In this document: positions 17,561 through 32,624 of the stretch, piece after piece
Numbering within the stretch: the stretch's first letter is position 1
How the letters are laid out: every line of letters begins with the position of its first letter
Origin: Frondihabitans australicus
GTDB taxonomy: Bacteria > Actinomycetota > Actinomycetes > Actinomycetales > Microbacteriaceae
DNA: 64,000 nucleotides
NCBI RefSeq assembly: GCF_003634555.1
Contig: NZ_RBKS01000001.1
Location: 620,001 to 684,000 of the forward strand
Direction of reading: 5' to 3'
Notes under the pieces: generated by a model
Told to the model about the DNA's origin: nothing
The model's database searches: none
What the model saw: the letters and a program-made list of their open reading frames with translations, nothing else
Program-made: the position numbers and the translations under genes

Positions 17561-17618
17561 GCGACAAAACGCGACACCTGCGACGCGCTCCGACGTCGCA
17601 GGTGTCGCGTTTTGTCGC
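17561..17618. repeat. Dispersed long hairpin, GCGACAAAACGCGACA family, copy 1
   Basis: A perfect 25-bp stem (17561-17585 with 17594-17618) and an 8-nt loop. Outer 16 bp GCGACAAAACGCGACA are shared with copies at 22398, 24164 and (one change) 32567. It lies 14 bp past the HAD stop codon. Confidence 0.92.
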
Positions 17619-17670
17619 GCGGGGAACCGGGAGCGGCGCGAAGGGGCGTGCGGCGGCGCGCCAAACTTGT

Positions 17671-17683
17671 TAGTCTGGCTAAA
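17671..17683. promoter_or_regulatory. Small palindrome TTAGTCTGGCTAA before the MFS gene
   Basis: TTAG-N5-CTAA in AT-rich sequence upstream of the transporter GTG, resembling a MarR/TetR-type half-site pair. No regulator gene is adjacent on this side, so the binder is unknown. Confidence 0.35.
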
Positions 17684-17717
17684 TAACTATCGCCGACCGA
17701 CAGGAGCGCCACCACCC

Positions 17718-18995
17718 GTGAAGAGACGATTCGCGTCCGGTTTCTCCCGCACCTTCGTGTCGCTGGGCACCCGCAACTACCGTCTCTTCTTCATCGGCCA
17801 GCTGGTGTCGAACAGCGGAAACTGGCTCACGAACGTCGCCCTGACGCTGCTCGTCCTCGATCGGACGGGCAGCGGCACGGCCGTGGGGTGGCTCGTCGCC
17901 TGCCAGTACGGGCCGATCCTGTTCTTCTCGATCTACGCCGGCTCGATCGCCGACCGGGTCGACAAGCGCAAGCTGCTCTACGTCACGCAGTCGCTCGAGA
18001 TGGCCGAGTCGGTGCTGCTGGCGGTGTTCGCGTTCATTCCGGGCACGTCGCTCGCCGTCTTCTACGTGATCGCGACCCTCGGCGGCTGCCTGCTCGCGGC
18101 CGACAATCCGGCGAGGCGCTCGTTCGTGCGCGAGCTGGTGCCGCGCTCGCAGGTGTCGAACGCCGTCACGCTCTACAGCTCGATGGTCAACCTCTCCCGC
18201 ATCGTCGGGCCCGCCATCGCCGGTCTGCTGGTCTCGACGCTCGGCTTCGGCTGGGCGTTCGCGATCGACGCCGCGTCGTACTCGGTCGTGATCGTCGCGC
18301 TGATCCGCATGAACGGCGCCGAGTTCTTCACCTCGCCGCGCGCCGTGAAGGCTAAGGGGCAGGTGATCGCGGGCGTCAAATACATCTGGCGCACGCCCGA
18401 GCTCGCGGTCTCGTTCGCCATGCTCCTGGTGATCGGCCTGCTCAGCTACAACTTCAACGTCACCTACCCGCTGCTCGTCGAGAAGGGTCTGCACGGCTCG
18501 GCGCTCCAGTACACGCTGCTGTACTCGTCGTTCAGCATCGGAGCGCTCGTCGGCACCCTGTTCGTGGCTCGGCGCACGACGATCACGCTCCGCACCATCA
18601 TCCTGAGCGCAGGAGCCTTCGGAATCGCTCTCACAGCCCTGGCGTTCGTGCCGAACATCCCGGTCGCGTACCTCGTCGCGGCCGCCGTCGGAGCCGTGTC
18701 GATCTCGTACATGACCGCCACCACGGCGATGGCGCAGCTGCGCGCCGAGCCGTCGATGGCGGGTCGCGTGATCGCCGTGCAGACGGTACTGCAGATCGGC
18801 ACCACACCGATCGGCGGGCCGCTGCTCGGATGGGTGGCCGATGTCGCAGGAGCCCGCGTCCCCATCCTCATCGGAGGCGTCGCCGCGCTCGCCACCTTCG
18901 CCGTGGCGGCGGCGACGGCCCGGCGCAGGATGAACGCCGACCCGCTCGAGGAGGTCGCGCGCGACACGGCGGCTACGCCGACCGTGTCGCGCTGA
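17718..18995 (+). CDS. MFS exporter (EntS/MFS_3 type)
   Basis: A 425-residue protein with 12 hydrophobic segments. The N-terminus RNYRLFFIGQLVSNSGNWLTNVAL matches the MFS_3 group. It continues GSIADRVDKRKLLY in loop 2-3, and NPARRSFVRELVP after helix 4 is also typical. This group includes siderophore and drug exporters; the substrate here is unknown. The GTG at 17718 has AGGAG 11 bases upstream. Convergent with the alcohol dehydrogenase gene, 16 bp apart. No adjacent siderophore genes. Confidence 0.88.
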   Translation: MKRRFASGFSRTFVSLGTRNYRLFFIGQLVSNSGNWLTNVALTLLVLDRTGSGTAVGWLVACQYGPILFFSIYAGSIADRVDKRKLLYVTQSLEMAESVLLAVFAFIPGTSLAVFYVIATLGGCLLAADNPARRSFVRELVPRSQVSNAVTLYSSMVNLSRIVGPAIAGLLVSTLGFGWAFAIDAASYSVVIVALIRMNGAEFFTSPRAVKAKGQVIAGVKYIWRTPELAVSFAMLLVIGLLSYNFNVTYPLLVEKGLHGSALQYTLLYSSFSIGALVGTLFVARRTTITLRTIILSAGAFGIALTALAFVPNIPVAYLVAAAVGAVSISYMTATTAMAQLRAEPSMAGRVIAVQTVLQIGTTPIGGPLLGWVADVAGARVPILIGGVAALATFAVAAATARRRMNADPLEEVARDTAATPTVSR

Positions 18996-19011
18996 CCGCC
19001 CGCCGCACCGG

Positions 19012-20061
19012 CTACGCGTCAAGGTCGGCCAGGTCGAGCACGAATCGGTACCGCACGTCGCCGCGCTCCAGGCGGTCCAGTGCCTCCGAGACGCGAGCGG
19101 ACGGCAGCACCTCGACGTCGGCCGTGATGCCGTGCTCGGCGCAGAACGCGAGCAGCTCGGCCGTGTGCAGCCGGCCGCCGGTGCCTGACGCGAACACGCG
19201 CTTGCGGCCCGGGAGGAAGGCGAAGAAGCGCGGCGGGGTCATCAGCGGATTGCCGAGCATGCAGAACGAGCCGTCGAGACCGAGCATGCCCAGCAGGGGC
19301 TCGAGGGCGTGCTCGGCCGAGATCGTGTCGATGACGAGATCGAAGCGACCACGGGCATCCTGCACCGCCTGCTCGTCGGTCGTGTCGAGCAGGGCGGTGG
19401 CGCCGAGGCTGATCGCGTCGTCGGTCTTCGCCGTGCCGCGGCTCAGCACCGTGACCTCGGCGCCGAGAGCCGCGGCGAGCTTGACGGCGAGGTGACCGAG
19501 GCCGCCGAGCCCGGCGACCGCGACGCGGCTGCCCGGGCCGATGCCGGAGGCGACGAGGGGCTCCCAGACCGAGATGCCGGCGCACATCAGGGGTGCGGCC
19601 GCGGCCGCGTCGAGGCCGTCGGGCAGGCGGTAGGCGAAGGTCGACTTCAGCACGTACTCGCGGCTGTAGAGGCCCTGCGTCTTCGTGCCGTCGACGCGGT
19701 CGGTGCCGCCGTAGGTGGTGACGGGCCCCTGCCAGCAGTAGTTCTCCTGGCCGGCGAGGCACATCGCGCACTCACCGCACGAGTCGACGATCGTGCCGAT
19801 CGCGACTCGATCGCCCATGACGAGGTCGGTCACGGCCGGTCCGACGGCGGTGACGACGCCGGTCGCCTCGTGCCCGGGCACGATGTCGCCCTCGCCGAGC
19901 ATTCCCTGGATGCGGTGGAGGTCGCTGTGGCAGACGCCGCAGAAGTCGACTCGCACGGCGATGTCGTCGTCGCGGAGGTCGCGGCGCTCGAAGGCGGTGC
20001 GCTCCAGATCGGTGGGTCGGTCGCTCGCACTGTTGCTCTGCCAGCCGGTGGTCGTTCGCAT
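19012..20061 (-). CDS. Zinc-dependent alcohol/aldehyde dehydrogenase (AdhA/YahK-like)
   Basis: A 349-residue medium-chain dehydrogenase. Catalytic Zn ligands lie in CGVCHSDLH (about 40-48) and GHEATG (about 62-67). The structural Zn cysteines are in CGECAMCLAGQENYC (about 94-108). The cofactor motif AGLGGLGHLAVKLAAALG is near 175-192. The pattern matches cinnamyl-alcohol-dehydrogenase-type NADPH aldehyde reductases. The ATG at 20061 has GAGAGGA upstream. It follows the TetR gene on the same strand, with two CGGAA-N6-TTCCG palindromes in the 99-bp gap, so it is the likely TetR target, perhaps for aldehyde detoxification. Confidence 0.9.
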   Translation of the reverse strand: MRTTTGWQSNSASDRPTDLERTAFERRDLRDDDIAVRVDFCGVCHSDLHRIQGMLGEGDIVPGHEATGVVTAVGPAVTDLVMGDRVAIGTIVDSCGECAMCLAGQENYCWQGPVTTYGGTDRVDGTKTQGLYSREYVLKSTFAYRLPDGLDAAAAAPLMCAGISVWEPLVASGIGPGSRVAVAGLGGLGHLAVKLAAALGAEVTVLSRGTAKTDDAISLGATALLDTTDEQAVQDARGRFDLVIDTISAEHALEPLLGMLGLDGSFCMLGNPLMTPPRFFAFLPGRKRVFASGTGGRLHTAELLAFCAEHGITADVEVLPSARVSEALDRLERGDVRYRFVLDLADLDA

Positions 20062-20080
20062 GGGGGTCCTCTCGAAATCG

Positions 20081-20138
20081 TCCGCACGAAGCGGAATGAC
20101 GATTCCGATACTACGCTTAAGCGGAAGATGGATTCCGC
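20081..20138. promoter_or_regulatory. TetR operator cluster, CGGAA-N6-TTCCG twice
   Basis: CGGAATGACGATTCCG (20092-20107) and CGGAAGATGGATTCCG (20122-20137) share identical arms with centres 30 bp apart. A third overlapping inverted repeat, TCCGC-N5-GCGGA, is at 20081-20095. All lie between the TetR stop and the dehydrogenase start. Confidence 0.7.
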
Positions 20139-20160
20139 ATAAGACCATGAAGAAGCGGAC

Positions 20161-20766
20161 TCAGGAGGCGAGCGGCGTGCCTCCCGATGGTCGAAGCCCG
20201 TCGATGTGCACTCTGACGAACCGGCGCCAGCGCTCGTCGTCGGCCTCGGGCAGGGCCTCCATCACTCCTCGCAGAGCCACGAGTAGCGCCTTGATGTCGG
20301 CGCCTGTCACGTCGGATGAGAGCACGCCTGCGGCCACCGCGTTGACCGTGAGCTGCTCGACCTTGGCGTTCGTCACCGGACGATCGGTTCGCTCGCCGAG
20401 GCGGTCGAGCAGCGCGGCCGAATAGAGCCGCTTCTCGGAGGTGAATCGGCCGACGTAGTCGAGAAAGGTGAGCAGCCCGCGTTCCGCGTCGCCGTCGTCG
20501 AGGGCGGCGTCGGCGGCCGCGTCGAGTTCGGCGGAGAGCTGCTCGGCGATGGCGTCGAGCAGGGCGTCCTTGCCCGCGAAACGTCGGTAGATCGTGCCGA
20601 CGCCGACTCCCGCGCGAGCCGCGATCTCTTCCATGCTGGCATCGGGGCCGCGTTCGGCGAAGGCTGCGCGAGCGGCCTCGATGACCCGCTGCTCGTTGCG
20701 CACGGCGTCGCGCCGAGGAGCACGAGCGCTGGCGAGAGCTCGCGAGGCGTCGGCGGTCGATGGCAT
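20161..20766 (-). CDS. TetR family transcriptional regulator
   Basis: A 201-residue repressor. The N-terminal HTH (about 20-66) reads VIEAARAAFAERGPDASMEEIAARAGVGVGTIYRRF, followed by a helical ligand-binding domain like TetR_C_33 (SBI/YcdC-like). It lies upstream of the Zn-dehydrogenase on the same strand. The paired palindromes between the two genes are its probable operator. The inducer is unknown, probably an aldehyde or toxic alcohol. The gene is divergent from the sugar porter. Confidence 0.92.
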   Translation of the reverse strand: MPSTADASRALASARAPRRDAVRNEQRVIEAARAAFAERGPDASMEEIAARAGVGVGTIYRRFAGKDALLDAIAEQLSAELDAAADAALDDGDAERGLLTFLDYVGRFTSEKRLYSAALLDRLGERTDRPVTNAKVEQLTVNAVAAGVLSSDVTGADIKALLVALRGVMEALPEADDERWRRFVRVHIDGLRPSGGTPLAS

Positions 20767-20861
20767 GCCACGAGCGTATCCCGACGGCGCCGCGCCCTCG
20801 ACGCAGCGTGTCCGCCGTCGGAGCGCTCCATTCCGAAAAGTGGAAGAATGGCTTGCGCAAA

Positions 20862-20901
20862 TGACAGGACATAGGGGTAGGGTTCACGTGTCCTAATGTC
20901 A
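20862..20901. promoter_or_regulatory. Imperfect inverted repeat upstream of the sugar porter
   Basis: TGACA.GGACA at 20862-20871 faces TGTCC...TGTCA at 20889-20901, immediately upstream of the AAAGGAG ribosome site (20905-20911). Possible operator; no dedicated regulator is adjacent other than TetR, whose own sites look different. Confidence 0.35.
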
Positions 20902-20917
20902 GAACAAAGGAGTTCCC

Positions 20918-22387
20918 GTGTCGACAACGACTGGTACGTCGGACACAGCCACGGGCGGCGCGATCTCGCTGCCGCCCCTCACCACAGGGCCCCACAGCAA
21001 GCGCCTCGGAATGGTCGCGCTCGTCGCCACCTTCGGCGGCCTCCTCTTCGGCTACGACACCAGCGTCATCAACGGCGCGCTCAGCCCGATGGTGCAGGAG
21101 CTGCACCTGACGGCGCTCTCTGAGGGCGGCGTCACCTCAGGACTCCTCTTCGGCGCCGCGGTCGGCGCCATCACCGGCGGTCGCCTGTCGGACGCCTGGG
21201 GTCGACGCAAGTCGATCATGCTCATGGCGGTGCTGTTCTTCATCGGCGCGATCCTCTGCGTCATCGCGCCGACGTTCGGCGTCATGCTCGCCGGCCGCAT
21301 CGTTCTCGGCCTCGCCGTCGGCGCAGCGTCGACGATCGTCCCGGTCTTCCTTGCCGAACTCGCTCCGTACGAGATCCGAGGATCGATCGCGGGCCGCAAC
21401 GAGTTCGCGATCGTGCTCGGCCAGCTCCTGGCCTTCTGCATCAATGCCGCCATCGCCATCATCGCCGGCGGCGAGGGCCACGGCGTGTGGCGCATCATGC
21501 TGGCCGTCGAGGCCCTGCCGGCGATCGCGCTGTTCATCGGCATGATCCGCATGCCCGAGTCGCCGCGCTGGCTCGTCTCGAAGGGCCGCGACGCCGAGGC
21601 GCTCGAGGTGCTGTCGACGCTCCGCACGAAGGAGCGCGCCGAGGCCGAGCTCAAGGACGTCGAGCGCGTCACGACGGAAGACAAGAACGTCGTGAAGATG
21701 GACCTCGGGTCGATCCTGCGCAACAAGTGGCTGATCCGGATCCTGCTCGTCGGCATCGGCCTCGGCGTCGCCCAGCAGCTCACCGGAATCAACGCGGTCA
21801 TGTACTACGGCCAGTCGGTGCTCCGCGAGGCCGGCTTCGGCGCGCAGGTCGCGCTCATCGTCAACATCGGCCCCGGCATCGTCGCGGTGATCGGCGCCAT
21901 CATCGCGCTGCGGATGATGGACCACTTCTCGCGCCGCCTCACGTTCATCCTCGGCTTCACGCTGACGACGATCTGCCACCTGCTCATCGGCATCGGCTCG
22001 GTCGCGCTGCCCGTCGGCAACCCGGCCCGCCCGTGGGTGCTGCTCGTGCTCATCATCGCGTTCGTCGGCTCGATGCAGACCTTCCTCAACGTCGCCACCT
22101 GGGTGACGCTGTCGGAGATCTTCCCGCTGAAGATGCGCGGCTTCGGCATCGGCGTGTCGGTGTTCTGCCTCTGGATCGCGAACGCCTTCCTCGGCCTGTA
22201 CTTCCCGACGATCATCAGCGCGTTCGGCATCACGGGCACGTTCTTCGGCTTCGCCGTCGTCAACGCCCTCGCGCTGCTGTTCGTGTGGCGCGCCGTCCCC
22301 GAGACGCGCGGCCGCACGCTCGAGAAGCTCGAGGAGGACGTCACCACGGGCGCGATCTACACGCAGAACGTGAAGTCGCGCGCCTAG
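20918..22387 (+). CDS. Sugar porter family MFS transporter
   Basis: A 489-residue, 12-helix sugar:H+ symporter. Signatures are GGLLFGYDTSVINGAL near 42-57, GRLSDAWGRRKSIM after helix 2, and PESPRWLVSKGR at the end of helix 6. QQLTGINAVMYYG is near 286-298 and PETRGRTLEKLE at the C-terminus. All are classic for the XylE/GLUT-type family (TC 2.A.1.1). The sugar is unknown. The GTG at 20918 has AAAGGAG 6 bases upstream. It stands alone and may feed several catabolic genes in the window. Confidence 0.95.
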   Translation: MSTTTGTSDTATGGAISLPPLTTGPHSKRLGMVALVATFGGLLFGYDTSVINGALSPMVQELHLTALSEGGVTSGLLFGAAVGAITGGRLSDAWGRRKSIMLMAVLFFIGAILCVIAPTFGVMLAGRIVLGLAVGAASTIVPVFLAELAPYEIRGSIAGRNEFAIVLGQLLAFCINAAIAIIAGGEGHGVWRIMLAVEALPAIALFIGMIRMPESPRWLVSKGRDAEALEVLSTLRTKERAEAELKDVERVTTEDKNVVKMDLGSILRNKWLIRILLVGIGLGVAQQLTGINAVMYYGQSVLREAGFGAQVALIVNIGPGIVAVIGAIIALRMMDHFSRRLTFILGFTLTTICHLLIGIGSVALPVGNPARPWVLLVLIIAFVGSMQTFLNVATWVTLSEIFPLKMRGFGIGVSVFCLWIANAFLGLYFPTIISAFGITGTFFGFAVVNALALLFVWRAVPETRGRTLEKLEEDVTTGAIYTQNVKSRA

Positions 22388-22397
22388 CCCCCCTCTT

Positions 22398-22455
22398 GCG
22401 ACAAAACGCGACAATCGCGACGTCTCCGGGCGTCGCGATTGTCGCGTTTTGTCGC
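22398..22455. repeat. Dispersed long hairpin, GCGACAAAACGCGACA family, copy 2
   Basis: A perfect 25-bp stem (22398-22422 with 22431-22455) and an 8-nt loop. The inner nine stem bases (ATCGCGACG) differ from copy 1 (CCTGCGACG), yet both stems pair perfectly, so changes on one side are compensated on the other. It lies 10 bp past the sugar-porter stop. Confidence 0.92.
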
Positions 22456-22477
22456 GGAGGAGTGGTCTCCGGCCAGG

Positions 22478-22537
22478 GCCTCCCGAAAACGACTCCGCGC
22501 ACCCGATTTCGCGTGCGCAGAGTCGTTTTCGGGAGGC
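22478..22537. terminator. Second hairpin in the same convergent gap
   Basis: GCCTCCCGAAAACGACTC (22478-22495) pairs perfectly with GAGTCGTTTTCGGGAGGC (22520-22537). It is adjacent to the next gene's stop at 22539. A different sequence family, but the same layout and a related AAAACG/CGTTTT core. Confidence 0.8.
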
Positions 22538-22538
22538 G

Positions 22539-23735
22539 CTAGGAGGTGTGCGGGCGCGGGCGACGCCGCGCGGAGCCGACGGCGAACGCGACGAGGGCCA
22601 CGAGGGCGAGGGCCGCGCCGGTGAGCGGGATGGCGATCGACGCTCCCGATCCTGCGAGCTCGAAGCCGCCCAGGACGGGCGCGAGGGCGATCCCGACGTA
22701 CATCGCGGTCGAATACCACGACAGGGCGATGCCGGCGGTGGCCGGGTCGATGCTCACGAGGCGGTGTTGCACCGGCACGACGGCGCCGAACGCGAGCACG
22801 CCCCAGACGAAGAACGCCACGGCGAGGAGCGCGTACGACCCTGCCAGCACGGGCACCAGGCCCAGCACGACGACCTCGCCGCCGAGCCCGATCGCGACCA
22901 TGGCGCGAGAGCCGAGCCGGTCGGTCAGCCGCCCCGACAGGTTCGTGCCCACGACGCCTCCGAGACCGAAGAGCAGCAGCAGGATGGCGAGAAGCCCCGA
23001 CGACCCCGACGTCGACGCCGCCGTGACCGGGCTCACGAAGATGTAGACGATGTTGAACCCGGCGGTCAGGAGCAGCGCCGACACGAGCGTCAGCACCATC
23101 GCGCCGCCTCGAAGCGTCGCCAGCCGAGCCCGCAGGCCGATCGCCGCACCGAGGGGCACGTCTCGCACGAGAACGCCGATCGCGACCGCGAGCAGGGCAC
23201 CCAGGATCGCGAGAGCGCCGAGCGGCAGACGCCATCCACCGACGCCGGCCAGCGCCGTCCCGACCGGTGAGCCGAGTGCGGTCGCGAACGTGAAGCCGAG
23301 GGCGGCGATCGCCAGTGCTCGACCCCGCTGGTCGGCCGGAAGGAGCGTGGGCGCGGCCGCGGTGGCCGCGGGGACCAGCGCGGCACCGCCGATCGCGGCG
23401 AGGACGCGGCCGACCTCGAACATCCCGAGGCTGGTGCTCACCGCGGTCACGGCGGTGCCGACCGCGATGACGGCGAGCCCGGCCGTCATGAGGTGCGTGC
23501 GGTCGATGCGCGCGAGCCCGACCGAGAGGGCCGGCGAGACGACGGCCACGATGATCGAGTACAGCGTGATCGTGTAGCCGACGCTGGTCTCTGTCGTGCC
23601 GAGCCCGCGGGCGATCTGGGGGAGGAGACCGGCGATGACGAACGCGTTGGTGCCGACGACGAAGAGGGCGCCGGCGAGGATGCCGAGGCGTGCCGTCACG
23701 ATGCGTGAGGCGTACGATTGTTCGATAACCGTCAT
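22539..23735 (-). CDS. MFS exporter (AraJ/DHA1-like)
   Basis: A 398-residue protein with 12 membrane helices of the DHA1/AraJ group. It starts ALFVVGTNAFVIAGLLPQIARGLG and carries DRTHLMTAGLAVIAVG in loop 2-3. LLPADQRGRALAIAALG is at the end of helix 4. Related proteins export sugars, drugs or arabinose-like compounds. It is divergent from an ArsR-type regulator gene over 56 bp containing a perfect palindrome, so expression is presumably controlled by that regulator. Confidence 0.9.
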   Translation of the reverse strand: MTVIEQSYASRIVTARLGILAGALFVVGTNAFVIAGLLPQIARGLGTTETSVGYTITLYSIIVAVVSPALSVGLARIDRTHLMTAGLAVIAVGTAVTAVSTSLGMFEVGRVLAAIGGAALVPAATAAAPTLLPADQRGRALAIAALGFTFATALGSPVGTALAGVGGWRLPLGALAILGALLAVAIGVLVRDVPLGAAIGLRARLATLRGGAMVLTLVSALLLTAGFNIVYIFVSPVTAASTSGSSGLLAILLLLFGLGGVVGTNLSGRLTDRLGSRAMVAIGLGGEVVVLGLVPVLAGSYALLAVAFFVWGVLAFGAVVPVQHRLVSIDPATAGIALSWYSTAMYVGIALAPVLGGFELAGSGASIAIPLTGAALALVALVAFAVGSARRRPRPHTS

Positions 23736-23753
23736 ACGATCAGAGTACGCCGT

Positions 23754-23773
23754 AGTTCGATAGTTGTCGAACT
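23754..23773. promoter_or_regulatory. ArsR-type operator AGTTCGA-N6-TCGAACT
   Basis: Perfect 7-bp arms separated by TAGTTG, between the divergent MFS and ArsR genes and 18 bp upstream of the regulator ATG. A related GTTCGATAAC lies in the first codons of the MFS gene (23719-23728), possibly a second half-site. Confidence 0.65.
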
Positions 23774-23791
23774 GTTTTTCGAAGGAGTCGC

Positions 23792-24115
23792 ATGTCCGAC
23801 TACCCCGTCCCCGACATGGCCGACGTGACGATGGTCGAGATCCTGCGAGCCGTGGCCGATCCGATCCGCCTGCACATCGTCGGCGTGCTGGCCGACGGCG
23901 AGCCGAAGGCGAAGACGCTCGACGGGTGGGGCGTCGACATCACGAAGTCGACCATGTCGCACCACTTCAAGATCCTGCGCGAGGCCGGCGTCACGCGCAC
24001 GCTCGTCGACGGGCGCAACCATGCGATCCAGCTGCGGCGGCAGGAGCTCGATGAGAGATTCCCGGGGCTGATCCCTGCGCTCATCGCGAGCATGCCCGCC
24101 CCGCCCGCGGCGTAG
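23792..24115 (+). CDS. ArsR family winged-helix regulator
   Basis: A 107-residue regulator. It opens with MVEILRAVADPIRLHIVGVLADGE and has the recognition helix in STMSHHFKILREAGVTRT near 52-69 and the wing VDGRNHAIQLRR. No cysteine metal box is present, so it is unlikely to sense metal ions. It resembles the HTH_20 regulators that control adjacent MFS exporters. The ATG has GAAGGAG upstream. Divergent from the AraJ-like exporter with a shared operator. Confidence 0.92.
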   Translation: MSDYPVPDMADVTMVEILRAVADPIRLHIVGVLADGEPKAKTLDGWGVDITKSTMSHHFKILREAGVTRTLVDGRNHAIQLRRQELDERFPGLIPALIASMPAPPAA

Positions 24116-24163
24116 CGAGCCTCCGACGCCTCCGTCCCCCGAGCCCGTCTCTTCGAGCCCCGG

Positions 24164-24221
24164 GCGACAAAACGCGACACCTGCGACGCCCCGATGTGTC
24201 GCAGGTGTCGCGTTTTGTCGC
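24164..24221. repeat. Dispersed long hairpin, GCGACAAAACGCGACA family, copy 3
   Basis: A 24-bp perfect stem (24164-24187 with 24198-24221) whose arms match copy 1; the loop differs. It lies between the convergent ArsR and Zn-dehydrogenase genes. Confidence 0.92.
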
Positions 24222-24240
24222 AGAGGGGGAGAGTGAGGGG

Positions 24241-25302
24241 CTAGGGGAGCCGCGGGTCGACGTGGAGCTTCGGCCCGGGCCCGGCGCCGGCGGGGCGTGA
24301 GCCGGCGAGCACGGGTCCGACCCCGTCGAGCGACACGGTGGCGGCGACGAGAGGCCGAGGGTCGACGACGCCCGACGCGTACGCCTCGATCGCCCCGGCG
24401 AGTCCGCCCGAGGCGCTGAGCACTCCGACCGCGGTCACGTCTTTCAGGGCGAGGTCGCGCGAGTCGACGAGCGACGGCGCGCCCGACAGCCCGATGAAGA
24501 CGACGCGGCCGCCCGGCTCGACCAGGTCGACGGCGAGGGCGGGAGACGAGGCGCCGTTCGACGCGTCGATGACGGCGTCGAACGGGCCGGCGGGCGGCGA
24601 GTCCGCTCCTGCCGGGAGACCGGCATCGGCCGGCGCCGCGGACCCGTCGGCCAGCGACACGGTGTCGAACTCCAGGGAGCGGGCGAAGGCGAGCGAGCCT
24701 GGCGTGACCCCGGCGAGCTGTACCGCGGCTCCTGCCGCCTGAGCGAAGAGCGCGCAGAGCAGGCCGATGGTGCCCGGCCCGAGCACGAGCACGCGTGACC
24801 CTTTCGACAGCGCCGCACCGCGCACGGCCCGCAGTGCGTTGCCGCCGGGCTCGACGAGCGCCCCTGCGACCGAGTCGACCGACGAGGGCAGCGCGTGCAG
24901 CGACGACGCCGGCACCACGAGCTGCGAGGCGAGGGCTCCGGGCCAGCCGCCGCGGATCCCGATCTCGTACCGGTCGTCGCAGAGGTGCTGGCGCCCCGAG
25001 AGGCATCGGCGACAGTGGCCGCAGCCGAGCATCGTGTCGCCGGTCGTCCGCGTGCCGACGAGCGCCGGAGAGACGCCCGGGCCGACGGCCGAGATCGTGC
25101 CGCACCACTCGTGCCCGAGCCGCAGCGGGTACGCCGCGTGCCCCTGGTGCAGGTACGCCATCTCGCCCGAGAAGAACTCGGCGTCGGTGCCGCACACCCC
25201 GACCCGTTCGACATCGACGACCACCTGGCCCTCCGAGGGCGCAGGATCGGGCACCTCCTCGACCGCATACCTCCCCGGCCCGGTGACGACGAACGCGCGC
25301 AC
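24241..25302 (-). CDS. Zinc-binding dehydrogenase (polyol/threonine dehydrogenase type)
   Basis: A 353-residue medium-chain dehydrogenase. Catalytic-site residues are GVCGTDAEFF (about 35-44) and LRLGHEWCG (about 60-68). A CGHCRRCLSGRQHLC segment near 94-108 carries the structural-zinc cysteines, and the cofactor motif LGPGTIGLLCALFAQAAG is near 171-188. The GTG start lies 3 bp past the FAH-family stop, so it is the last gene of the SDR-IclR-FAH operon. In this pathway it could oxidise the free sugar or the 2-keto-3-deoxy intermediate. An alternative is a distinct substrate oxidation upstream of the dehydratase. Confidence 0.88.
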   Translation of the reverse strand: MRAFVVTGPGRYAVEEVPDPAPSEGQVVVDVERVGVCGTDAEFFSGEMAYLHQGHAAYPLRLGHEWCGTISAVGPGVSPALVGTRTTGDTMLGCGHCRRCLSGRQHLCDDRYEIGIRGGWPGALASQLVVPASSLHALPSSVDSVAGALVEPGGNALRAVRGAALSKGSRVLVLGPGTIGLLCALFAQAAGAAVQLAGVTPGSLAFARSLEFDTVSLADGSAAPADAGLPAGADSPPAGPFDAVIDASNGASSPALAVDLVEPGGRVVFIGLSGAPSLVDSRDLALKDVTAVGVLSASGGLAGAIEAYASGVVDPRPLVAATVSLDGVGPVLAGSRPAGAGPGPKLHVDPRLP

Positions 25303-25305
25303 GGC

Positions 25306-26166
25306 CTACCGCGGCCCGACGACGGTCTGGCGCTGCGACCCCAGCCCGTCGATGCCGAGCTCCATCACGTCGCCCGGCTGCAGCCAGATCTGCGGGTCGA
25401 AGCCCATGCCGACGCCGGGAGGAGTGCCGGTGTCGATGAGGTCGCCGGGCTCGAGCACCATGAACTGCGACAGGTGGTGCACGATGAAGTAGGGGTCGAA
25501 GATCATCGTCGACGTCGAGCCGTCCTGCCGCCGCACGCCGTTGACGTCGAGCCACATTCCGAGGTCGCCGACGTCGGAGATCTCGTCGGGCGTGACGAGC
25601 CACGGCCCGGTCGGGTTGAACGTCTCGGCCGACTTGCCCTTCGACCACTGCCCGCCGCGCTCCATCTGGAACGCGCGCTCGGAGACGTCGTTGACGACGG
25701 TGAATCCGGCGATGGCGTCGCGGGCCTCGTCGACCGAGTCGAGGTACGAGGTGCGGCGGCCGATGACGATGCCGAGCTCGACCTCCCAATCGGGCTTCGT
25801 CGACCCGCGGGGGATCCGCACGTCGTCGTTCGGGCCGACGAGGGTGTTCGGCGACTTCGTGAACAGGATCGGCTCGCTCGGCACCGCCTGCCCGGTCTCT
25901 TTCGCGTGGTCGGAGTAGTTGAGGCCGATGCAGAGGATCTGGTGCGGGCGGGCGATCGGAGCGCCGACGCGTTCGTCGGTGAACGGGGTCGCTGCTCCTG
26001 CCGCCTGCTTCGACGCCACGAGCGCCGGAAGCGTGGCGAGGCCGCCCGAGCCGAAGAACGCCTCGTCGAAGTCGGGCACGACGTCGCCGACATCGACGTA
26101 GTGGTCGACGTCGACGCGCACGACCGGCCTCTCGTGGCCGGGTTCGCCGAGGCGCATGAGCTTCAT
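25306..26166 (-). CDS. FAH family hydrolase, probable 2,4-diketo-3-deoxyaldonate hydrolase
   Basis: A 286-residue member of the fumarylacetoacetate hydrolase family. ILCIGLNYSDHAKET (about 77-91) supplies the catalytic His. Metal-binding acidic residues are E128 and E130 of DWEVEL, with NDVSER further on; GTPPGVGMG closes the site. Family members next to an SDR and an aldonate dehydratase cleave 2,4-diketo-3-deoxy acids to pyruvate plus lactate or glycolate (for example in L-fuconate and L-rhamnonate pathways). That role is inferred from neighbours here. A strong AAGGAG precedes the ATG. Third gene of the operon. Confidence 0.88.
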   Translation of the reverse strand: MKLMRLGEPGHERPVVRVDVDHYVDVGDVVPDFDEAFFGSGGLATLPALVASKQAAGAATPFTDERVGAPIARPHQILCIGLNYSDHAKETGQAVPSEPILFTKSPNTLVGPNDDVRIPRGSTKPDWEVELGIVIGRRTSYLDSVDEARDAIAGFTVVNDVSERAFQMERGGQWSKGKSAETFNPTGPWLVTPDEISDVGDLGMWLDVNGVRRQDGSTSTMIFDPYFIVHHLSQFMVLEPGDLIDTGTPPGVGMGFDPQIWLQPGDVMELGIDGLGSQRQTVVGPR

Positions 26167-26211
26167 GGTTCTCCTTCTGGGGTGGGGTGGCTGGAGGGCG
26201 CAGGATCCGAG

Positions 26212-27030
26212 TCAGTCCGCTCCCGACACGATCGCTCGGATCGCGCTGAGATCGCGCACGAGGTCCCCGATCGGCATGCGGTAGGCGAGCCCCGAGATGC
26301 TGATGCCGCCCGTGGGGACAGTCGGCGACGCGAGGAAGGCCGGCAGCGCGAGGCAGTTCACGCCGGCCTCGTTCTCTTGATCGTCGATCGAGTAGCCGCG
26401 CTCGCGGATGAGCTCGAGCTGGTCGTGAAGGGCCTCGGGTGTCGCGGCCGTCGTCTCCGTCCGCGCCTCGAGCGGCTCGTCGCCGATCCAGTCGCGCACG
26501 GCGTCGAGGGTCGGCAGCTCGTACGACAGCAGGAGCTTGCCGACGGCCGTCGAGTGCGCGGGGTTGCGCCCGCCCACGGTCGACGAGAGCTTCACGGCGC
26601 CGACCAGCGGGTCGACCTTCGACCGGTACACCACCCAGCGCCCGTCGAGGACGGCGTAGTGCGCCGTCTCGCCGTAGCGGTGGGCGAGGCGCTCCAGGAT
26701 CCCGGTGACCCGCACGTGGTCGGGCCGCCCCTCGGCGTGCGCGAAGGCCAGGCGCAGGAACTCGTCGCCGAGGATGTAGTGGCCGTGGCCGTCCTGCGCC
26801 GCGAGGCCCGCGCGCCGCAGCGACGCGAGGGCGCGGTGCACCGTCGGCTTCGGTGCCCGGATGACCGTGACGAGCTCGTCGAGGCTCGCGCCCTGGGTGT
26901 GCTTGGCCAGCTCGACGAGCACCGCCAGCACGCGGTCGGCGCCGACGACGCGGTCGGGCTCGGCCGAGGCGGCGCCGGTGGCGGCGGCGCCGGTCGCCGT
27001 GACGGTCGTCGGAGCAGCCACGGCGCTCAC
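26212..27030 (-). CDS. IclR family transcriptional regulator
   Basis: A 272-residue regulator. An Ala/Thr-rich N-terminus precedes the winged HTH (about 25-85; SLDELVTVIRAPKPTVHRALASLRRAGL). The effector domain follows, with RNPAHSTAVGKLLLS near 139-153 and GYSIDDQENEAGVNCLALP near 205-223. The GTG overlaps the SDR stop in a GTGA. Being inside the operon it regulates, it probably responds to a pathway intermediate. The likely target is the GTTCCA-N5-TGGAAC palindrome between the divergent SDR and dehydratase genes. Confidence 0.93.
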   Translation of the reverse strand: MSAVAAPTTVTATGAAATGAASAEPDRVVGADRVLAVLVELAKHTQGASLDELVTVIRAPKPTVHRALASLRRAGLAAQDGHGHYILGDEFLRLAFAHAEGRPDHVRVTGILERLAHRYGETAHYAVLDGRWVVYRSKVDPLVGAVKLSSTVGGRNPAHSTAVGKLLLSYELPTLDAVRDWIGDEPLEARTETTAATPEALHDQLELIRERGYSIDDQENEAGVNCLALPAFLASPTVPTGGISISGLAYRMPIGDLVRDLSAIRAIVSGAD

Positions 27031-27773
27031 ACCCGCAGCGACGTCATGCCGCCGTCGACGCGGAGGATCGAGCCGGTCGTCGACGCGGCGACCGGCGAGG
27101 CGAGCGAAGCGATGGCGTAGGCGACCTCGTCGGCTGAGACAAGACGGCCGAGCGGCTGCCGCGCGCGAAGCGCCGCTGCCGCGGCAGACGGATCGGGCGC
27201 GGCGTCGAGCAGGCGGCCGACCCACGGGGTGTCGGCGGTGCCTGGTGCGACGGCGTTCACGCGGATGCCCTCGTGCACGTGGTCGGCGGCCATCGCGAGC
27301 GTCAGCGCGGCGACGGCGCCCTTCGACGCGGCGTAGAGGGCGCGCTGCACGACGCCGACGAACGCGACCGACGAGCAGGTGTTCACCACCGAGGCGTGGG
27401 CCGACCGGCGCAGGTGGGGGAGCGCGGCCCGCGTCACGCGGGCCATCGCCACCACGTTCACGTCGAGCACGCGATGCCACTCGTCGTCGGGGTTCTCGGA
27501 GACGTCGCCCGCGGCGCCGATTCCCGCGTTGTTGATGAGGACGTCGATGCCCCCGAGCTCCTGCGCCACCCGCTCGATCGCCGTGTCGACGGCCGACGAA
27601 TCGGTGATGTCGCACTCGATCGCCAGCACGCCGTCGGGCGCCCCCGAGATCGCGCGATCGAGCACGGCGACGCGGGCCCCGCGTGACAGGAGGAGGCTGG
27701 CGGTGGTGGCGCCGATGCCACTCGCCCCGCCCGTCACGACGGCGACCAGCCCTTCGAACTCCGTTGTTGTCAT
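27027..27773 (-). CDS. SDR oxidoreductase, probable 2-keto-3-deoxyaldonate dehydrogenase
   Basis: A 248-residue classical short-chain dehydrogenase. The NAD(P) motif is TGGASGIG (14-21), NNAG at 81-84, catalytic Ser134/135, Tyr147 and Lys151 in YAASK. The C-terminus GSILRVDGGMTSLRV is typical. D39 after strand 2 (VAVLDR) favours NAD+. First gene of the operon, divergent from the IlvD-type dehydratase. In the proposed pathway it oxidises the 2-keto-3-deoxy acid at C4 to the diketo acid cleaved by the FAH-family enzyme. That substrate is inference. Confidence 0.9.
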   Translation of the reverse strand: MTTTEFEGLVAVVTGGASGIGATTASLLLSRGARVAVLDRAISGAPDGVLAIECDITDSSAVDTAIERVAQELGGIDVLINNAGIGAAGDVSENPDDEWHRVLDVNVVAMARVTRAALPHLRRSAHASVVNTCSSVAFVGVVQRALYAASKGAVAALTLAMAADHVHEGIRVNAVAPGTADTPWVGRLLDAAPDPSAAAAALRARQPLGRLVSADEVAYAIASLASPVAASTTGSILRVDGGMTSLRV

Positions 27774-27821
27774 GCCACGAGTATGGCTACAGTGAAGAAG
27801 ATTTCCAACCCGCGGTTGTGA

Positions 27822-27838
27822 GTTCCAATAAATGGAAC
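27822..27838. promoter_or_regulatory. Candidate IclR operator GTTCCA-ATAAA-TGGAAC
   Basis: A perfect 6-bp-arm palindrome in the 89-bp space between the divergent SDR and dehydratase starts. The TGGAA/TTCCA arms resemble IclR/KdgR-type sites, and a further half-site TTTCCA is at 27812-27817. It would let one regulator control both transcripts. Confidence 0.65.
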
Positions 27839-27862
27839 ACGCGGCACCGAGAACGGACTGCA

Positions 27863-29575
27863 ATGGAGCATCGGAGCTCTCAGTGGTACGGCGGCGACGA
27901 CCGCAACGCGTACATCCACCGCGCATGGATGCGCCGCGGGCTGCCCGCCGACGCCTTCGACGGCCGGCCGCACATCGCCATCGCGAACACCGCGAGCGAC
28001 CTCACGCCGTGCAACGCGCACCTCACCGAGGTGGCGCGGTCGGTGAAGGAGGGAATCTGGGCGGCCGGGGGAGTGCCGCTCGAGCTCCCCGTCGTCTCGC
28101 TCGGCGAGACGAACGTGCGCCCGACGGCGATGCTCTGGCGCAACATGGCCGCGATGAGCACCGAGGAGATGCTCCGCGCGAACCCGATCGACGGCGTCGT
28201 GCTCCTCGGCGGGTGCGACAAGACGATCCCGTCGCTGCTCATGGCCGCGGCCTCGGTCGACCTGCCGGCCCTCGTGATCCCCGGCGGCCCGATGCTCACC
28301 GGCACCTTCCGCGGCGAGGCGCTCGGCTGCGGCACCGACGTGTGGCGGCTCAGCGAGGAGGTCCGGGCCGGCACCCTCACGAACGAGCAGTTCCACCGCA
28401 GCGAGTCGTCGATGATCCGGTCGCGGGGCCACTGCAACACCATGGGCACGGCGTCGACGATGGGGTTGCTGGCCGAGGCGCTCGGGACGGTGCTTCCTGG
28501 GCTCGCCGGGACCCCTGCTCCTGACAGCCGCCTGCTCGAGATGTCGCACGAGTCGGGACGGCTGATCGTCGACCTCGTCGAGCGCGACCTGCGCCCGTCG
28601 CGTCTGCTCACGAAGGCGTCGTTCCACAACGCGATCGTCACCCTGGCCGCGATCGGCGGCTCCACGAACGCGGTCGTGCATCTGCTCGCGATCGCCGGCC
28701 GCCTCGGCATCGACCTGACGCTCGCCGACTTCGACCGCATCGGCTCCGGCGTCCCGCTGCTGGTCAACCTCCAGCCGGCGGGCACCTTCCTCATGGAAGA
28801 CCTCTTCCGCGCGGGCGGCCTGCAGGCGGTCCTCCGCGAGGTGCAGGATCTGCTCGACCCCACGGCCATCACGGTCTCCGGCCGGCCCCTCGTCGACCAC
28901 CTGAACGAGGCGACCGTGTGGGACGCCTCGGTCATCGCGCATAGAGAAGAGCCCCTGCAGCCCGACGCCGGGATCGCCGTTCTGCGCGGCAACCTGGCCC
29001 CGGACGGCGCGATCATCAAGCCCGCCGCCGCGTCGATCCACCTGCTGAAGCACCGGGGCCGGGCCATCGTCTTCGACTCGATCGAGGACTTCCGCGCCCG
29101 CATCGACGACCCCGACCTCGACGTCGACGCCGACTCCGTGCTGGTGCTTCGAGGCTGCGGCCCTCGCGGGTACCCCGGCATGCCCGAGGTGTCGAACATG
29201 CCGCTGCCGAAGAAGCTGCTCGAGCAGGGCGTGCGCGACATGGTGCGCATCTGCGACGGCCGGATGAGCGGGACGGCGTACGGCACCGTGATCCTGCACG
29301 TCGCCCCGGAGGCCGCCGCCGGCGGGCCCCTCGCGCGCGTGCGGACCGGCGACTGGATCACGCTCGACGTGCACCGGCGCCGCCTCGACGTCGACGTGCC
29401 GCAGGACGAGCTCGACGCGCGCGAGCCGAACCAGGCCACGCTCGACGGGTTCGCGAAGCCGCGCCGCGGCTGGGAGCGGCTCTACGTCGACCACGTGACG
29501 CAGGCCGACACGGGCGCCGACCTCGACTTCCTCGTGGGGTCGAGCGGAGACGCGGTGGCGCGTGAGTCGCACTGA
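27863..29575 (+). CDS. IlvD/Edd family aldonic-acid dehydratase
   Basis: A 570-residue dehydratase requiring an Fe-S cluster and Mg2+. Cluster cysteines are in GGCDKT (near 117-122) and GHCNTMGT (near 189-196), and GGSTNAVVHLLA lies near 274-285. GCGPRGYPGMPE is near 431-442, and the DGRMSGTAYGTVILHV segment near 468 carries the catalytic serine. Motifs and neighbours favour a sugar-acid dehydratase (arabinonate, galactonate or fuconate type) over dihydroxy-acid dehydratase. The ribosome site at 27863 is weak. It overlaps the start of the FAD/Fe-S gene by 14 bp, forming one operon. Confidence 0.9.
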   Translation: MEHRSSQWYGGDDRNAYIHRAWMRRGLPADAFDGRPHIAIANTASDLTPCNAHLTEVARSVKEGIWAAGGVPLELPVVSLGETNVRPTAMLWRNMAAMSTEEMLRANPIDGVVLLGGCDKTIPSLLMAAASVDLPALVIPGGPMLTGTFRGEALGCGTDVWRLSEEVRAGTLTNEQFHRSESSMIRSRGHCNTMGTASTMGLLAEALGTVLPGLAGTPAPDSRLLEMSHESGRLIVDLVERDLRPSRLLTKASFHNAIVTLAAIGGSTNAVVHLLAIAGRLGIDLTLADFDRIGSGVPLLVNLQPAGTFLMEDLFRAGGLQAVLREVQDLLDPTAITVSGRPLVDHLNEATVWDASVIAHREEPLQPDAGIAVLRGNLAPDGAIIKPAAASIHLLKHRGRAIVFDSIEDFRARIDDPDLDVDADSVLVLRGCGPRGYPGMPEVSNMPLPKKLLEQGVRDMVRICDGRMSGTAYGTVILHVAPEAAAGGPLARVRTGDWITLDVHRRRLDVDVPQDELDAREPNQATLDGFAKPRRGWERLYVDHVTQADTGADLDFLVGSSGDAVARESH

Positions 29576-32528
29576 CGGGCGTCGCACGAGCGCGGTCGGC
29601 TCCGGCGGGAAGGCGTTCACCACGATCGGGGTCTCGGATCCTGCGCTCGTCGCGGCCCTCGAGCAGGCGGCGCCCGGAGCCGTGAGCTCGCGGCCGTCGG
29701 ACCGCCTCGCCCTCGCGCACGACGCGTCGCACTACCTCGTCACGCCGCAGGTCGTCGTCACGCCGCGCACGGCAGCGGAGGTCGGGGCGGTCGTGGCGGC
29801 GGCTCGGGCACGCGGTGCCGGGGTCACGTTCCGCTCGGGCGGGACGAGCCTGTCGGGCCAGGCGCAGGCGCCGGGGGTGCTGATCGACACTCGCCGCCAC
29901 TTCCGCGGCATCGAGCCTCTGGGCCCCGACGCCGCCAGGGTGCGGGTCGAGCCCGGTGCGACCGTGCGGCAGGTGAATGCCCGGCTGGCGGGGGCGCGGC
30001 GGCGTCTCGGGCCTGATCCTGCGTCCGAAGCGGCCTGCACGCTGGGCGGGGTGATCGCGAACAACTCGAGCGGGATGACGTGCGGCACCACGGCGAACAC
30101 CTACGCGACGCTCGACACGATCGTGGTCGTGCTCGCCGACGGCACGGTCGTCGACACGTCGCTGCCCGACGCCGACGCACGTCTGCGGGCGGCGCGCCCC
30201 GACGTCCACGACGGTCTGCTCGCGCTGCGCGGGCGGGTGATGCAGGAGCCGACGCTGGTCGCCTCCGTCGCCCGCCACCACTCGCTCAAGAACACCATGG
30301 GGTACGGGCTGAACGCTCTGACGGACTTCGCCTCGCCCGCCGAGATGCTGGCCCACCTCGTCGTCGGCAGCGAGGGGACGCTCGCGTTCGTCGCGTCGGC
30401 CGTGCTCCGGACGCTGCCGGTGCGGGCGCACCTGGCGACGGCGATGCTGTACTTCTCATCGCTCCGCGACGCCACCGACGCCCTGCCGGTGCTCGTCGAC
30501 TCGGGAGCCGCCGCGATCGAGCTGCTCGACGCCACCAGCCTGCGGGTGGCCCAGCGCGACGCCGGCGCCGATGCGTCGCTGCGCGATCTCGCCGTGGACG
30601 GTCATGCGGCGCTGCTCGTGGAGTACCAGGAGACCACGGCGGCTGGGCTGAGGTCGCGACTCGAGGTGGCCTCCGGCTTGCTGACCGCGCTGCCGCTCGC
30701 GCAGCCCGCCGCGTTCACGACCGATGCGGCCGCACGCGCGGCCCTGTGGCACATCCGCAAAGACCTCTACGCGACCGTCGCGGGCGCTCGCCCCTCGGGC
30801 ACGACAGCGCTGCTGGAGGACGTCGCCGTGCCGGTCGCGAGCCTCGCCGACGTCTGCGAGCGTCTCGTCGGGCTGTTCGCCGAGCACGGCTACGACGACG
30901 CCGTGATCTTCGGGCACGCGAAAGACGGCAACATCCACTTCATGCTCACCGAGCACTTCGACGACCAGGCCTCGCTCGCCCGCTACGACGCCTTCACCGA
31001 GGAGATGGTGGCGCTCGTGCTGGCCGCCGGCGGCACGCTCAAGGCGGAGCACGGCACGGGGCGCATCATGGCGCCGTACGTGCGGCTGCAGTACGGCGAC
31101 GAGCTCTACGAGGTGATGCTCGGGGTGAAGCGGCTGCTCGACCCCGAGGGCGTGCTGAACCCCGGCGTGGTGCTGCCGGCCGGGGACGTGTGGCCTGGCG
31201 CGGGCGCGACCGCCGACGTGGACGCCGCCGAGCGGCATGGTGCGCACCGTGCCGCCACCGTGCCCCTCAAGACGTCGCCGCCGATCGAGGTCGAGGCCGA
31301 CTCCTGCGTCGAGTGCGGCTACTGCGAGCCCGTCTGCCCCTCGAAAGACCTCACCCGCACCCCGCGGCAGCGCATCGTGCTCCGTCGCGAGCGTGCCCGC
31401 GCGCTCGCCGCCGGAGACACCGCCCTCGTCGCCGAGCTCGACGCCGACTACGACTACGACGGACTCGACACCTGCGCCGCCGACGGCATGTGCCAGACGG
31501 CGTGCCCGGTGCTCATCGACACCGGCAAGCTCGTGAAACGCCTGCGGGCGACGCAGACGACCCCCCTCGAGCGGGCGGCGTGGGCCGGCGCGGCGAAGCA
31601 CTGGGGCGCAGCGACGCGCGCCGGGTCGGCGGCGCTCACCGCGGCCGCGCACCTGCCGGCTCCGCTCGTCACCGGGGCGTCGCAGCTGGCCCGCGGGCTT
31701 CTGGGCGACGACACGGTGCCGCTGTGGGCGCGCGACCTGCCGGCGGGCGGAGGCGTGAGGCACGGGCAGACCTCCCGCGATCCTGCGGCCGTGTTCTTCC
31801 CCGCGTGCATCCAGACGCTGTTCGGGCCCGCGGCCGACGGCCCGGGAGCGTCGGGCGCCCTGCAGGCCCTCTGCGACCGGGCGGGCGTGGCGCTGCGCGT
31901 GCCGCAGGGCATCGGCGCCTTCTGCTGCTCGACGCCGTGGAAGTCGAAGGGCATGGGCGCAGGATCCGAGACCATGGCGGCGACCGTCCTCCCGGCCCTG
32001 TGGGAGTCGTCCGACCACGGCCGCCTCCCGGTCGTCTGCGATGCGGCCTCGTGCACCGAGGGACTCGAGGGTCTCGTGGCCGCCGCCGCCGCGTACCCCG
32101 GGCTGCGCGTGGTCGACGCGGTGACGTTCGTCGACGAGGTGGTGCTGCCACGGCTGCGCTCCGCGGGGCTCGTGCCGGTGCCAGCGCCTCTCGGCCGGCT
32201 CGCCCTGCACCCGACGTGCTCGTCGACGCGCCTCGGGTCGAACGACGCCCTGCTGCGCGTGGCCGGCGTCGCGGCGCGCGAGGTCGTCGTGCCCGACGAC
32301 TGGGGCTGCTGCGCCTTCGCCGGCGACCGCGGCATGCTGCACCCCGAGCTCACGGCGTCGGCCACGGCGCGGGAGGCCGCCGGAGTGGTCGCCGCCGCAC
32401 TCGACGGGGGAGCGTTCGACGCCTACGCCTCATGCAACCGCACCTGCGAGCTCGGCATGACCCGCGCGACCGGGCACCCGTACGAGCACGTGCTCGAGGT
32501 GCTGCTGCGCGCCCTCCCGCCCCGCTGA
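29562..32528 (+). CDS. FAD-linked oxidase with 4Fe-4S and CCG domains (lactate/glycolate dehydrogenase type)
   Basis: A 988-residue single-chain flavo-iron-sulfur dehydrogenase. An FAD-binding type 4 domain (about 40-250, FRSGGTSLSGQAQAPGVLID) is followed by an FAD-oxidase C domain. FGHAKDGNIHFML lies near 453-465 and EHGTGR near 496-501. Next come two Fe-S motifs, CVECGYCEPVC (about 583-593) and CAADGMCQTAC (about 637-647), and two CCG domains (FCCSTPW near 787, WGCCAFAG near 914). This layout equals GlcDEF/LldEF fused, as in D-lactate or glycolate dehydrogenases. It fits a pathway releasing lactate or glycolate. It shares a transcript with the dehydratase. Confidence 0.9.
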   Translation: MSRTDGRRTSAVGSGGKAFTTIGVSDPALVAALEQAAPGAVSSRPSDRLALAHDASHYLVTPQVVVTPRTAAEVGAVVAAARARGAGVTFRSGGTSLSGQAQAPGVLIDTRRHFRGIEPLGPDAARVRVEPGATVRQVNARLAGARRRLGPDPASEAACTLGGVIANNSSGMTCGTTANTYATLDTIVVVLADGTVVDTSLPDADARLRAARPDVHDGLLALRGRVMQEPTLVASVARHHSLKNTMGYGLNALTDFASPAEMLAHLVVGSEGTLAFVASAVLRTLPVRAHLATAMLYFSSLRDATDALPVLVDSGAAAIELLDATSLRVAQRDAGADASLRDLAVDGHAALLVEYQETTAAGLRSRLEVASGLLTALPLAQPAAFTTDAAARAALWHIRKDLYATVAGARPSGTTALLEDVAVPVASLADVCERLVGLFAEHGYDDAVIFGHAKDGNIHFMLTEHFDDQASLARYDAFTEEMVALVLAAGGTLKAEHGTGRIMAPYVRLQYGDELYEVMLGVKRLLDPEGVLNPGVVLPAGDVWPGAGATADVDAAERHGAHRAATVPLKTSPPIEVEADSCVECGYCEPVCPSKDLTRTPRQRIVLRRERARALAAGDTALVAELDADYDYDGLDTCAADGMCQTACPVLIDTGKLVKRLRATQTTPLERAAWAGAAKHWGAATRAGSAALTAAAHLPAPLVTGASQLARGLLGDDTVPLWARDLPAGGGVRHGQTSRDPAAVFFPACIQTLFGPAADGPGASGALQALCDRAGVALRVPQGIGAFCCSTPWKSKGMGAGSETMAATVLPALWESSDHGRLPVVCDAASCTEGLEGLVAAAAAYPGLRVVDAVTFVDEVVLPRLRSAGLVPVPAPLGRLALHPTCSSTRLGSNDALLRVAGVAAREVVVPDDWGCCAFAGDRGMLHPELTASATAREAAGVVAAALDGGAFDAYASCNRTCELGMTRATGHPYEHVLEVLLRALPPR

Positions 32529-32566
32529 GCTCGCCTTCCACCCCACCCCCTCCGCGGCGAGCCGGC

Positions 32567-32624
32567 GCGACAAAATGCGACACCTGCGACACACGGGGGC
32601 GTAGCAGGTGTCGCGTTTTGTCGC
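32567..32624. repeat. Dispersed long hairpin, GCGACAAAACGCGACA family, copy 4
   Basis: Arms 32567-32590 and 32601-32624 match copy 1 except for ACGCG to ATGCG on the left (a G-T pair in RNA) and one mismatch near the loop. It lies between convergent genes, 15 bp before the next stop codon. Confidence 0.9.

Follow-up and report, generated by a model that had tools for sequence, protein, structure and literature searches.

The window analysed here, 64,000 nucleotides of the Frondihabitans australicus genome (NCBI RefSeq assembly GCF_003634555.1, contig NZ_RBKS01000001.1, positions 620,001 to 684,000 of the forward strand), contains four copies of a long intergenic palindrome, F1, placed close to the stop codons of neighbouring genes (Table 1). 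The four hairpins noted in a preliminary description of this DNA are all found where it placed them, and each is exactly 58 bp long. If up to 3 mismatches are allowed, the 16-bp arm matches 8 places in the window; shuffled sequence gives a mean of 1.26 and a largest value of 5. Three of the copies lie between convergent genes, as had been described, and that at 17561-17618 sits between two plus-strand genes. Folded as RNA, the four copies (six strands) give a stable G+C-rich hairpin of -40 to -53 kcal/mol with z of -8.6 to -12.3: -51.4 (plus) and -52.0 (minus) kcal/mol at 17561-17618, -53.2 at 22398-22455, -51.7 at 24164-24221, and -41.0 (plus) and -39.9 (minus) at 32567-32624. This last copy has the T10-G49 pair attributed to it; its stem is less perfect than first described, with mismatches at 22-37 and 25-34.

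A search of the genome with the arm, as had been proposed, reveals far more copies than four, and the family numbers about 77 in the 4.04-Mb single-contig genome. At up to 2 mismatches the arm gives 74 plus-strand and 76 minus-strand matches with 0 in the reversed control, while a covariance model trained on 22 copies recovers at least 75 elements, each a match to all of its 58 positions; the copy statistics below cover these 75. The inner core (24 core bases, up to 3 mismatches) occurs at 77 places with 0 control matches. Because 75 of these belong to the analysed set (one copy beyond it, from the pattern search, sits at 1595613), there are few decayed copies, as expected if the family is old and maintained. 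No exact solitary arm exists, since the 52 plus-strand and 50 minus-strand exact arms of the genome all fall within the 75 palindromes.

The length of 58 bp and the layout of 25-8-25 are constant in 75/75 copies, and the spacing is 26 in all 42 copies with exact arms, although values of 20-30 were allowed. The arm reads GCGAC-AAAAC-GCGAC-ACCT-GCGACG, so that GCGAC boxes recur every 9-10 bp; of the 30 box positions, 25 never vary across the set. Arm changes amount to 117 of 3750 positions (3.1% divergence) and are found mainly at positions 7, 10, 17-19 and 25. No two of the 75 copies have the same 8-base centre; its first base is Y in 73/75 and its last base R in 75/75. Centre pairs that agree at 7 of 8 bases are close to the null (36 against 35.0 expected), and pairs without any match number 18 against 3.4 expected. 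The edges of the element are sharp, with 10 flanking positions pairing 274 times against 298.8 +/- 11.2 in shuffled flanks; an extension of the stem by complementary flanks is rejected, as the flanks pair less than shuffled ones.

With genes called by our own codon-based caller rather than taken from a published annotation, 45 of the 75 copies are convergent, 26 tandem and 4 called divergent, in stretches (a set chosen around F1) that hold 87 convergent, 195 tandem and 81 divergent junctions. Two of the four called divergent are preceded by an unchosen plus-strand reading frame that ends 13-18 nt before the element. Convergent copies have a median stop distance of 23.5 nt, with 81/90 distances at 50 nt or less, and in 23/26 tandem copies the upstream stop is the nearer one. 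Called genes contain none of the 75; the preliminary description had looked to further copies and to their lying outside genes, and both are found. F1 is thus a multicopy intergenic palindrome near the 3′ ends of flanking genes, which is how untagged stem-loops resembling repetitive extragenic palindromes (REPs) are recognised.

Table 1. Palindromes of the window (positions within the 64,000-nt stretch).
Element	Position	Surroundings
F1, 25-8-25 palindrome	17561-17618	13 nt past stop of plus-strand gene 16891-17547 (one stop only); next plus-strand gene from 17718
F1, variant inner arms ATC/GAT	22398-22455	convergent junction; 10 nt past stop of plus-strand gene 20918-22387, other stop 83 nt off
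F2 (CCTCCCGAAAACGACTC arms), 58 bp	22479-22536	same convergent junction as F1 22398-22455; adjoins end of minus-strand gene 22539-23735
F1	24164-24221	convergent genes, stops 48 and 19 nt off
F1, most diverged window copy	32567-32624	convergent genes, stops 38 and 15 nt off
F3 (CGAGTGGCA arms), 58 bp	10580-10637	
F3 (CGAGTGGCA arms), 58 bp	10802-10859	
Imperfect F3-like palindrome	9625-9682	23-nt arms, 74% complementary

Full-strength F1 is confined to this genome among the 398 genomes of the family searched. With the own genome included, under strict filters and with 14 candidates scored per genome, five genomes have a match at E<=1e-5, the four others being weak (best 5.1e-7). The exact arm is absent from all 98 relatives. 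For one protein of this genome the nearest named relatives are in two Frondihabitans genomes (81 and 84% identity), with Frigoribacterium next. Within the genus, the congener G001 gives 9 weak matches to the F1 model (best 2.4e-6) and the five other members give none at E<=0.01. Comparison of one F1 junction in 180-nt stretches shows no F1 in 13/13 named relatives; none was found in viral contigs, nor in plasmids, where one junction was searched. A genome contig collection, from which the own records may have been excluded, returned none with a pattern limited to centres starting CTC, so that just part of the F1 family was detectable there. In 1.2 Mb of G001, both neighbours are adjacent at 15 of the 75 F1 sites, and F1 is absent from 15/15. 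By eye, 7 of these 15 orthologous sites carry a different long palindrome, which in 6 cases fits a 58-bp frame: three belong to a family A, two to a family B, one is a perfect 58-bp palindrome and one is a 72-bp palindrome of a family C. The remaining sites have shorter or weaker hairpins, or none recognised. An automatic scan, which missed two of the family A palindromes counted by eye, places palindromes at 5/15 F1 sites against 2/37 other junctions of G001 (p 0.016, junction types pooled).

Such a distribution could be that of selfish, non-autonomous mobile DNA, akin to REPs or to miniature inverted-repeat transposable elements (MITEs), which survives only at gene ends and has no host function. 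The lineage-specific expansion to about 77 copies without a full-strength match in 397 other genomes of the family, the 15 orthologous sites without F1, and a location that fits REPs speak for this reading, and mobility driven by a REP-associated tyrosine transposase (RAYT) had been among the suggestions of the preliminary description. That suggestion is not supported: PF01797 has 0 matches at E<=0.001 in the own genome, against matches in 5 of 14 control genomes, so no Y1/RAYT is detected. Flanking direct repeats of the kind expected from MITE target-site duplication are likewise missing, with 0/75 copies having a touching repeat of at least 4 and 0/75 one of at least 5 at a shift of up to 2, and no autonomous partner with F1 ends was found at up to 2 mismatches (74 plus-strand and 76 minus-strand arms against 74 and 75 in the set). 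The lack of exact solitary arms and the scarcity of decayed copies within reach of the core pattern count in the same direction. Moreover, the arms are only 3.1% diverged yet the loops are unrelated, and a recent neutral burst therefore does not fit unless the centre was randomised at birth. We regard selfish DNA as a quite unlikely account.

F1 is one of several gene-end palindromes with a nearly fixed length. Two further families, F2 and F3, have arms unrelated to F1, also occur in the window, and keep 57-59 bp where 48-74 was allowed: of 12 F2 copies with exact arms, 10 are of 58 bp, one of 57 and one of 59, and of 11 F3 copies, 5 are of 58 bp and 6 of 57. At four places (window 22398-22536; genome 1639922-1640061, 2450026-2450147 and 3783778-3783899) F1 and F2 are neighbours within a single junction, separated by 6 to 24 bp. 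Between two F3 elements of the window, at 10714-10749, there is a further distinct hairpin, a perfect one of 16 bp (ATTTCAGATCGCGTTG / CAACGCGATCTGAAAT). In G001, family B occupies 44 places at 58 bp (fixed-length pattern, up to 2 mismatches), and this pattern has no match in 59 other genomes searched alongside. In a length-free scan of the 1.2 Mb, the 13 clustered B palindromes come to 58 bp in 12 cases and to 57 bp in the other, a count read by hand from the listed ends with the shared arm start taken as the end. Family B is convergent or tandem at 15/16 places, with 1 called inside a gene and 0 divergent. Family C has 11 copies in a 72-bp frame; two near-identical C palindromes, 15 bp apart, share a convergent junction at L116 5971-6130 and are likely a recent local duplication. 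The best copies of family A agree with F1 positions 11-25 at 14/15 bases and, in the same frame, with F2 positions 2-10 at 9/9 bases. In other genera, one genome (G011) shows equal spacing in 5/5 copies where 20-50 was allowed, and another (G021) has 25 palindromes in 200 kb with no family recognised. G001 also carries a family D (L118, L165, L183, L187 and L192), whose palindromes measure about 90 bp; its arms, GTCGCGAAATCGCGACC, are themselves nearly palindromic, and an inner stretch around GTCACATCCGTTACTGCCG is conserved. Short palindromes (34-39 bp) that share GGATCC or CAGGATGCC recur in both genomes (genome 1865967 and 1867433 in L085; G001 L186 17419 and L203 4170) and look like another gene-end family.

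Length and place thus seem to outlast the sequence of gene-end palindromes. In a broader and, in our judgement, unlikely form of this idea, a class of gene-end palindromes in these Microbacteriaceae would be set by a ruler rather than by sequence: at about 58 bp, in at least four to five arm families across two species, with arms rewritten between species and centres particular to each copy, a fast-evolving trans factor (a DNA-binding or copying enzyme) would read or deposit arms at a fixed distance, new copies might be born with random centres, and families would be exchanged at junctions. The arm families concerned would be F1, F2, F3 and B, together with A, for which few copies are available. 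If true, a convergent junction would swap families while its gene-end function stays.

The preliminary description held that selection seems to act on the structure of F1. This is supported for the spacer columns, which covary, and for total pairing, which exceeds a null in which halves are exchanged between copies (1927 against 1889.7 +/- 8.4); it does not extend to position 25 or the loop, where no pairing covariation is found, or to the GCGAC boxes. The covarying paired columns are 7/52, 10/49 and 17-19/40-42, and significant mutual information (p<=0.01) is present in 5/10 paired and 12/221 unpaired column pairs. Among the 8 strongest unpaired pairs, 7 fall within the 17-19/40-42 triplets. 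Kinship between copies, checked with the unpaired columns, may contribute in part to the covariation, and template-switch correction of palindromes is a possible cause of arm coupling besides selection. The same half-swap comparison gives no pairing excess in small samples of B (15 of 17), C (11 of 11), A (4 of 4) and F2 (8 of 10 frames), the rest being dropped as their arms were unpaired. A larger set of B (33 of 44 copies) pairs 293 times in columns 15-29 against 265.0 +/- 8.2, with 1/14 paired column pairs singly significant and C20 kept in 66/66 half-sites. For F2, a larger set of 13 (10 of the 12 exact-arm copies, the 57- and 59-bp ones being dropped, plus 3, with the arm-deletion copy in L076 left out) gives 89 against 79.1 +/- 2.7 in columns 18-25, columns 26-28 not being significant, and F3 (11/11 copies) gives 80 against 66.3 +/- 3.6 in columns 10-18, columns 19-24 not being significant.

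F1 is therefore conserved as both structure and sequence, as pairing alone does not require constant GCGAC boxes. The sequence component would be explained if each family were the DNA site of a dedicated protein that reads a 29-bp half-site as a dyad at gene ends and serves there as a roadblock, a nucleoid factor or a recombination factor; the length would then be constant since the protein gauges how far apart its half-sites lie. The near-invariant, regularly spaced boxes, the constant spacing of 26, the preference of the loop ends for Y and R without pairing covariation, the invariant C20 of family B and the sharp boundaries are all consistent with such a site. The covariation of the spacers across the dyad is not predicted by dimer binding alone, a number of such proteins would be needed for the unrelated arm families of equal length within one genome, and no candidate protein was found, no systematic search having been made. 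Binding by dedicated proteins is accordingly a tentative explanation that we think rather improbable.

The absence of a T-run, to which the preliminary description drew attention, holds only outside the stem. TTTT follows within 15 nt past the stem in 0/75 copies, whereas inside the 3′ arm it is present in 58/75, at positions 50-53, and AAAA occupies positions 6-9 in 58/75. The internal TTTT lies directly 3′ of the inner G+C-rich hairpin, which is why three of the four copies in the window are picked up by a terminator scan. F1 could then be an ordinary bidirectional intrinsic terminator and nothing else, in which an A-tract, a G+C-rich hairpin and a T-tract follow one another and the tracts are paired in an extended stem. 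We know of no ordinary terminators that share 50 bp of sequence, which counts against this reading. The tract is also just 4 T long and is broken in 17/75 copies, with C7-G52 in 8/75. In families B and C, at like places, T stands in the 5′ arm and A in the 3′ arm, and family B has no T-run in its 3′ arm; a U-tract is therefore not common to the class. Published work, cited here and below from excerpts, indicates that A-tract hairpins are able to act bidirectionally as terminators (PMC4824070), in agreement with the paired tracts of F1. The plain terminator, which we consider rather unlikely, is a narrow form of the explanation that we favour, and the chances given to the two overlap.

That explanation, to which we would give an even chance, is that F1 is a lineage-specific, untagged REP-like repeat whose 58-bp dyad is kept as a two-way hairpin at mRNA 3′ ends. 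In its favour count the position of the copies outside called genes and mostly close to stops, the stable folds of the window copies, the covariation of paired columns, the near-constant arms around unrelated loops, the scarcity of solitary arms and decayed copies, and the similar gene-end placement of family B. Because F1 is symmetric, both strands would yield the same long RNA hairpin, and one convergent copy can therefore mark the 3′ ends of both mRNAs. RNA polymerase would halt at or soon past F1, either on the inner hairpin and then the internal GTTTT tract, or by Rho termination farther downstream, after which the transcript would be trimmed as far as the hairpin; the stem would block 3′ exonucleases. 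Strong stem-loops without U at transcript ends in Streptomyces have been read in both these ways (PMC8269248), and in M. tuberculosis Rho helps to define mRNA 3′ ends (PMC5379054). Retention of the arms alongside drifting centres argues for maintenance of the copies, presumably by selection that acts in cis on each of them. The fixed length and the constant boxes argue for an additional, sequence-specific reader of the DNA or RNA, and a trans factor may recognise or spread the arms.

Several observations weigh against a hairpin kept for mRNA 3′ ends. Some copies start 1-6 nt past a stop, a distance at which an E. coli terminator is repressed by ribosomes (PMC4824070). The location of F1 is also expected from selection against harmful insertion, and it agrees with that of published REPs (PMC3733652). 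The near-invariant boxes and the fixed length should exceed the needs of a terminator or an exonuclease block. In tandem copies, G-U and A-C on the transcribed strand number 5 and 6 (9 other), without preference, and nothing therefore favours RNA over DNA. Finally, the excess of palindromes at the orthologous sites of G001 is not significant within convergent or tandem junctions, or within non-divergent junctions of at least 60 bp.

Palindromic extragenic repeats are common, and the question addressed here is the origin and persistence of untagged families that lack RAYTs. A few junctions in two related species offer a direct test between functional parts of 3′ ends and parked mobile DNA, and the F1 58-mer is a defined bait for a factor that reads the repeats. 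In the open-licence literature, whose silence is weak evidence of absence, we found no description of these Microbacteriaceae palindromes, or of a fixed-length class with random centres and species-rewritten arms. No Rfam family reaches its gathering score in the window.

Comparison with known systems places F1 among the untagged repeats and outside tagged REPs, RAYT-associated repeats and MITEs. Like F1, REPs tagged with GTAG or CGTC adjoin convergent and upstream genes at their 3′ ends and differ in family between species. The tagged superfamilies are rejected, as they have an unpaired GTAG or CGTC end, whereas F1 ends in paired GCGAC/GTCGC and has no Y1 transposase match in its genome; the stem of CGTC REPs is 8-9 bp (PMC3733652), against 25 bp in F1. 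Inverted DNA uptake sequences (PMC2267715) likewise set a repeated word in inverted pairs that are possible terminators; uptake sequences are rejected because many solitary copies, also within genes, are expected of them, and F1 has no exact solitary copies genome-wide and only about 77 copies in all. Bidirectional intrinsic terminators share with F1 the symmetry of A-tract, hairpin and T-tract and the convergent genes, but the F1 T-tract is short, buried in the stem and not common to B and C, and the F1 sequence is far more conserved than a terminator should require. The U-lacking ends of Streptomyces (PMC8269248) resemble F1 in a strong stem-loop without a U-run in a high-G+C actinobacterium; they are an experimental class for which the excerpts describe no shared repeat sequence, whereas F1 is known here from its sequence. 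Species-specific palindromic families at gene ends are already known (PMC3733652, PMC2267715), including families without terminal tags in M. tuberculosis, D. radiodurans and others (PMC3733652). The closest likeness is to these untagged stem-loop or REP-like families (Cozzuto et al. 2008, PMC2267715; Di Nocera et al. 2013, PMC3733652), which are likewise multicopy, species-specific, intergenic and several per genome; an exact length common to unrelated families and a random centre particular to each copy are features on the F1 side that go beyond what the excerpts of these reports describe.

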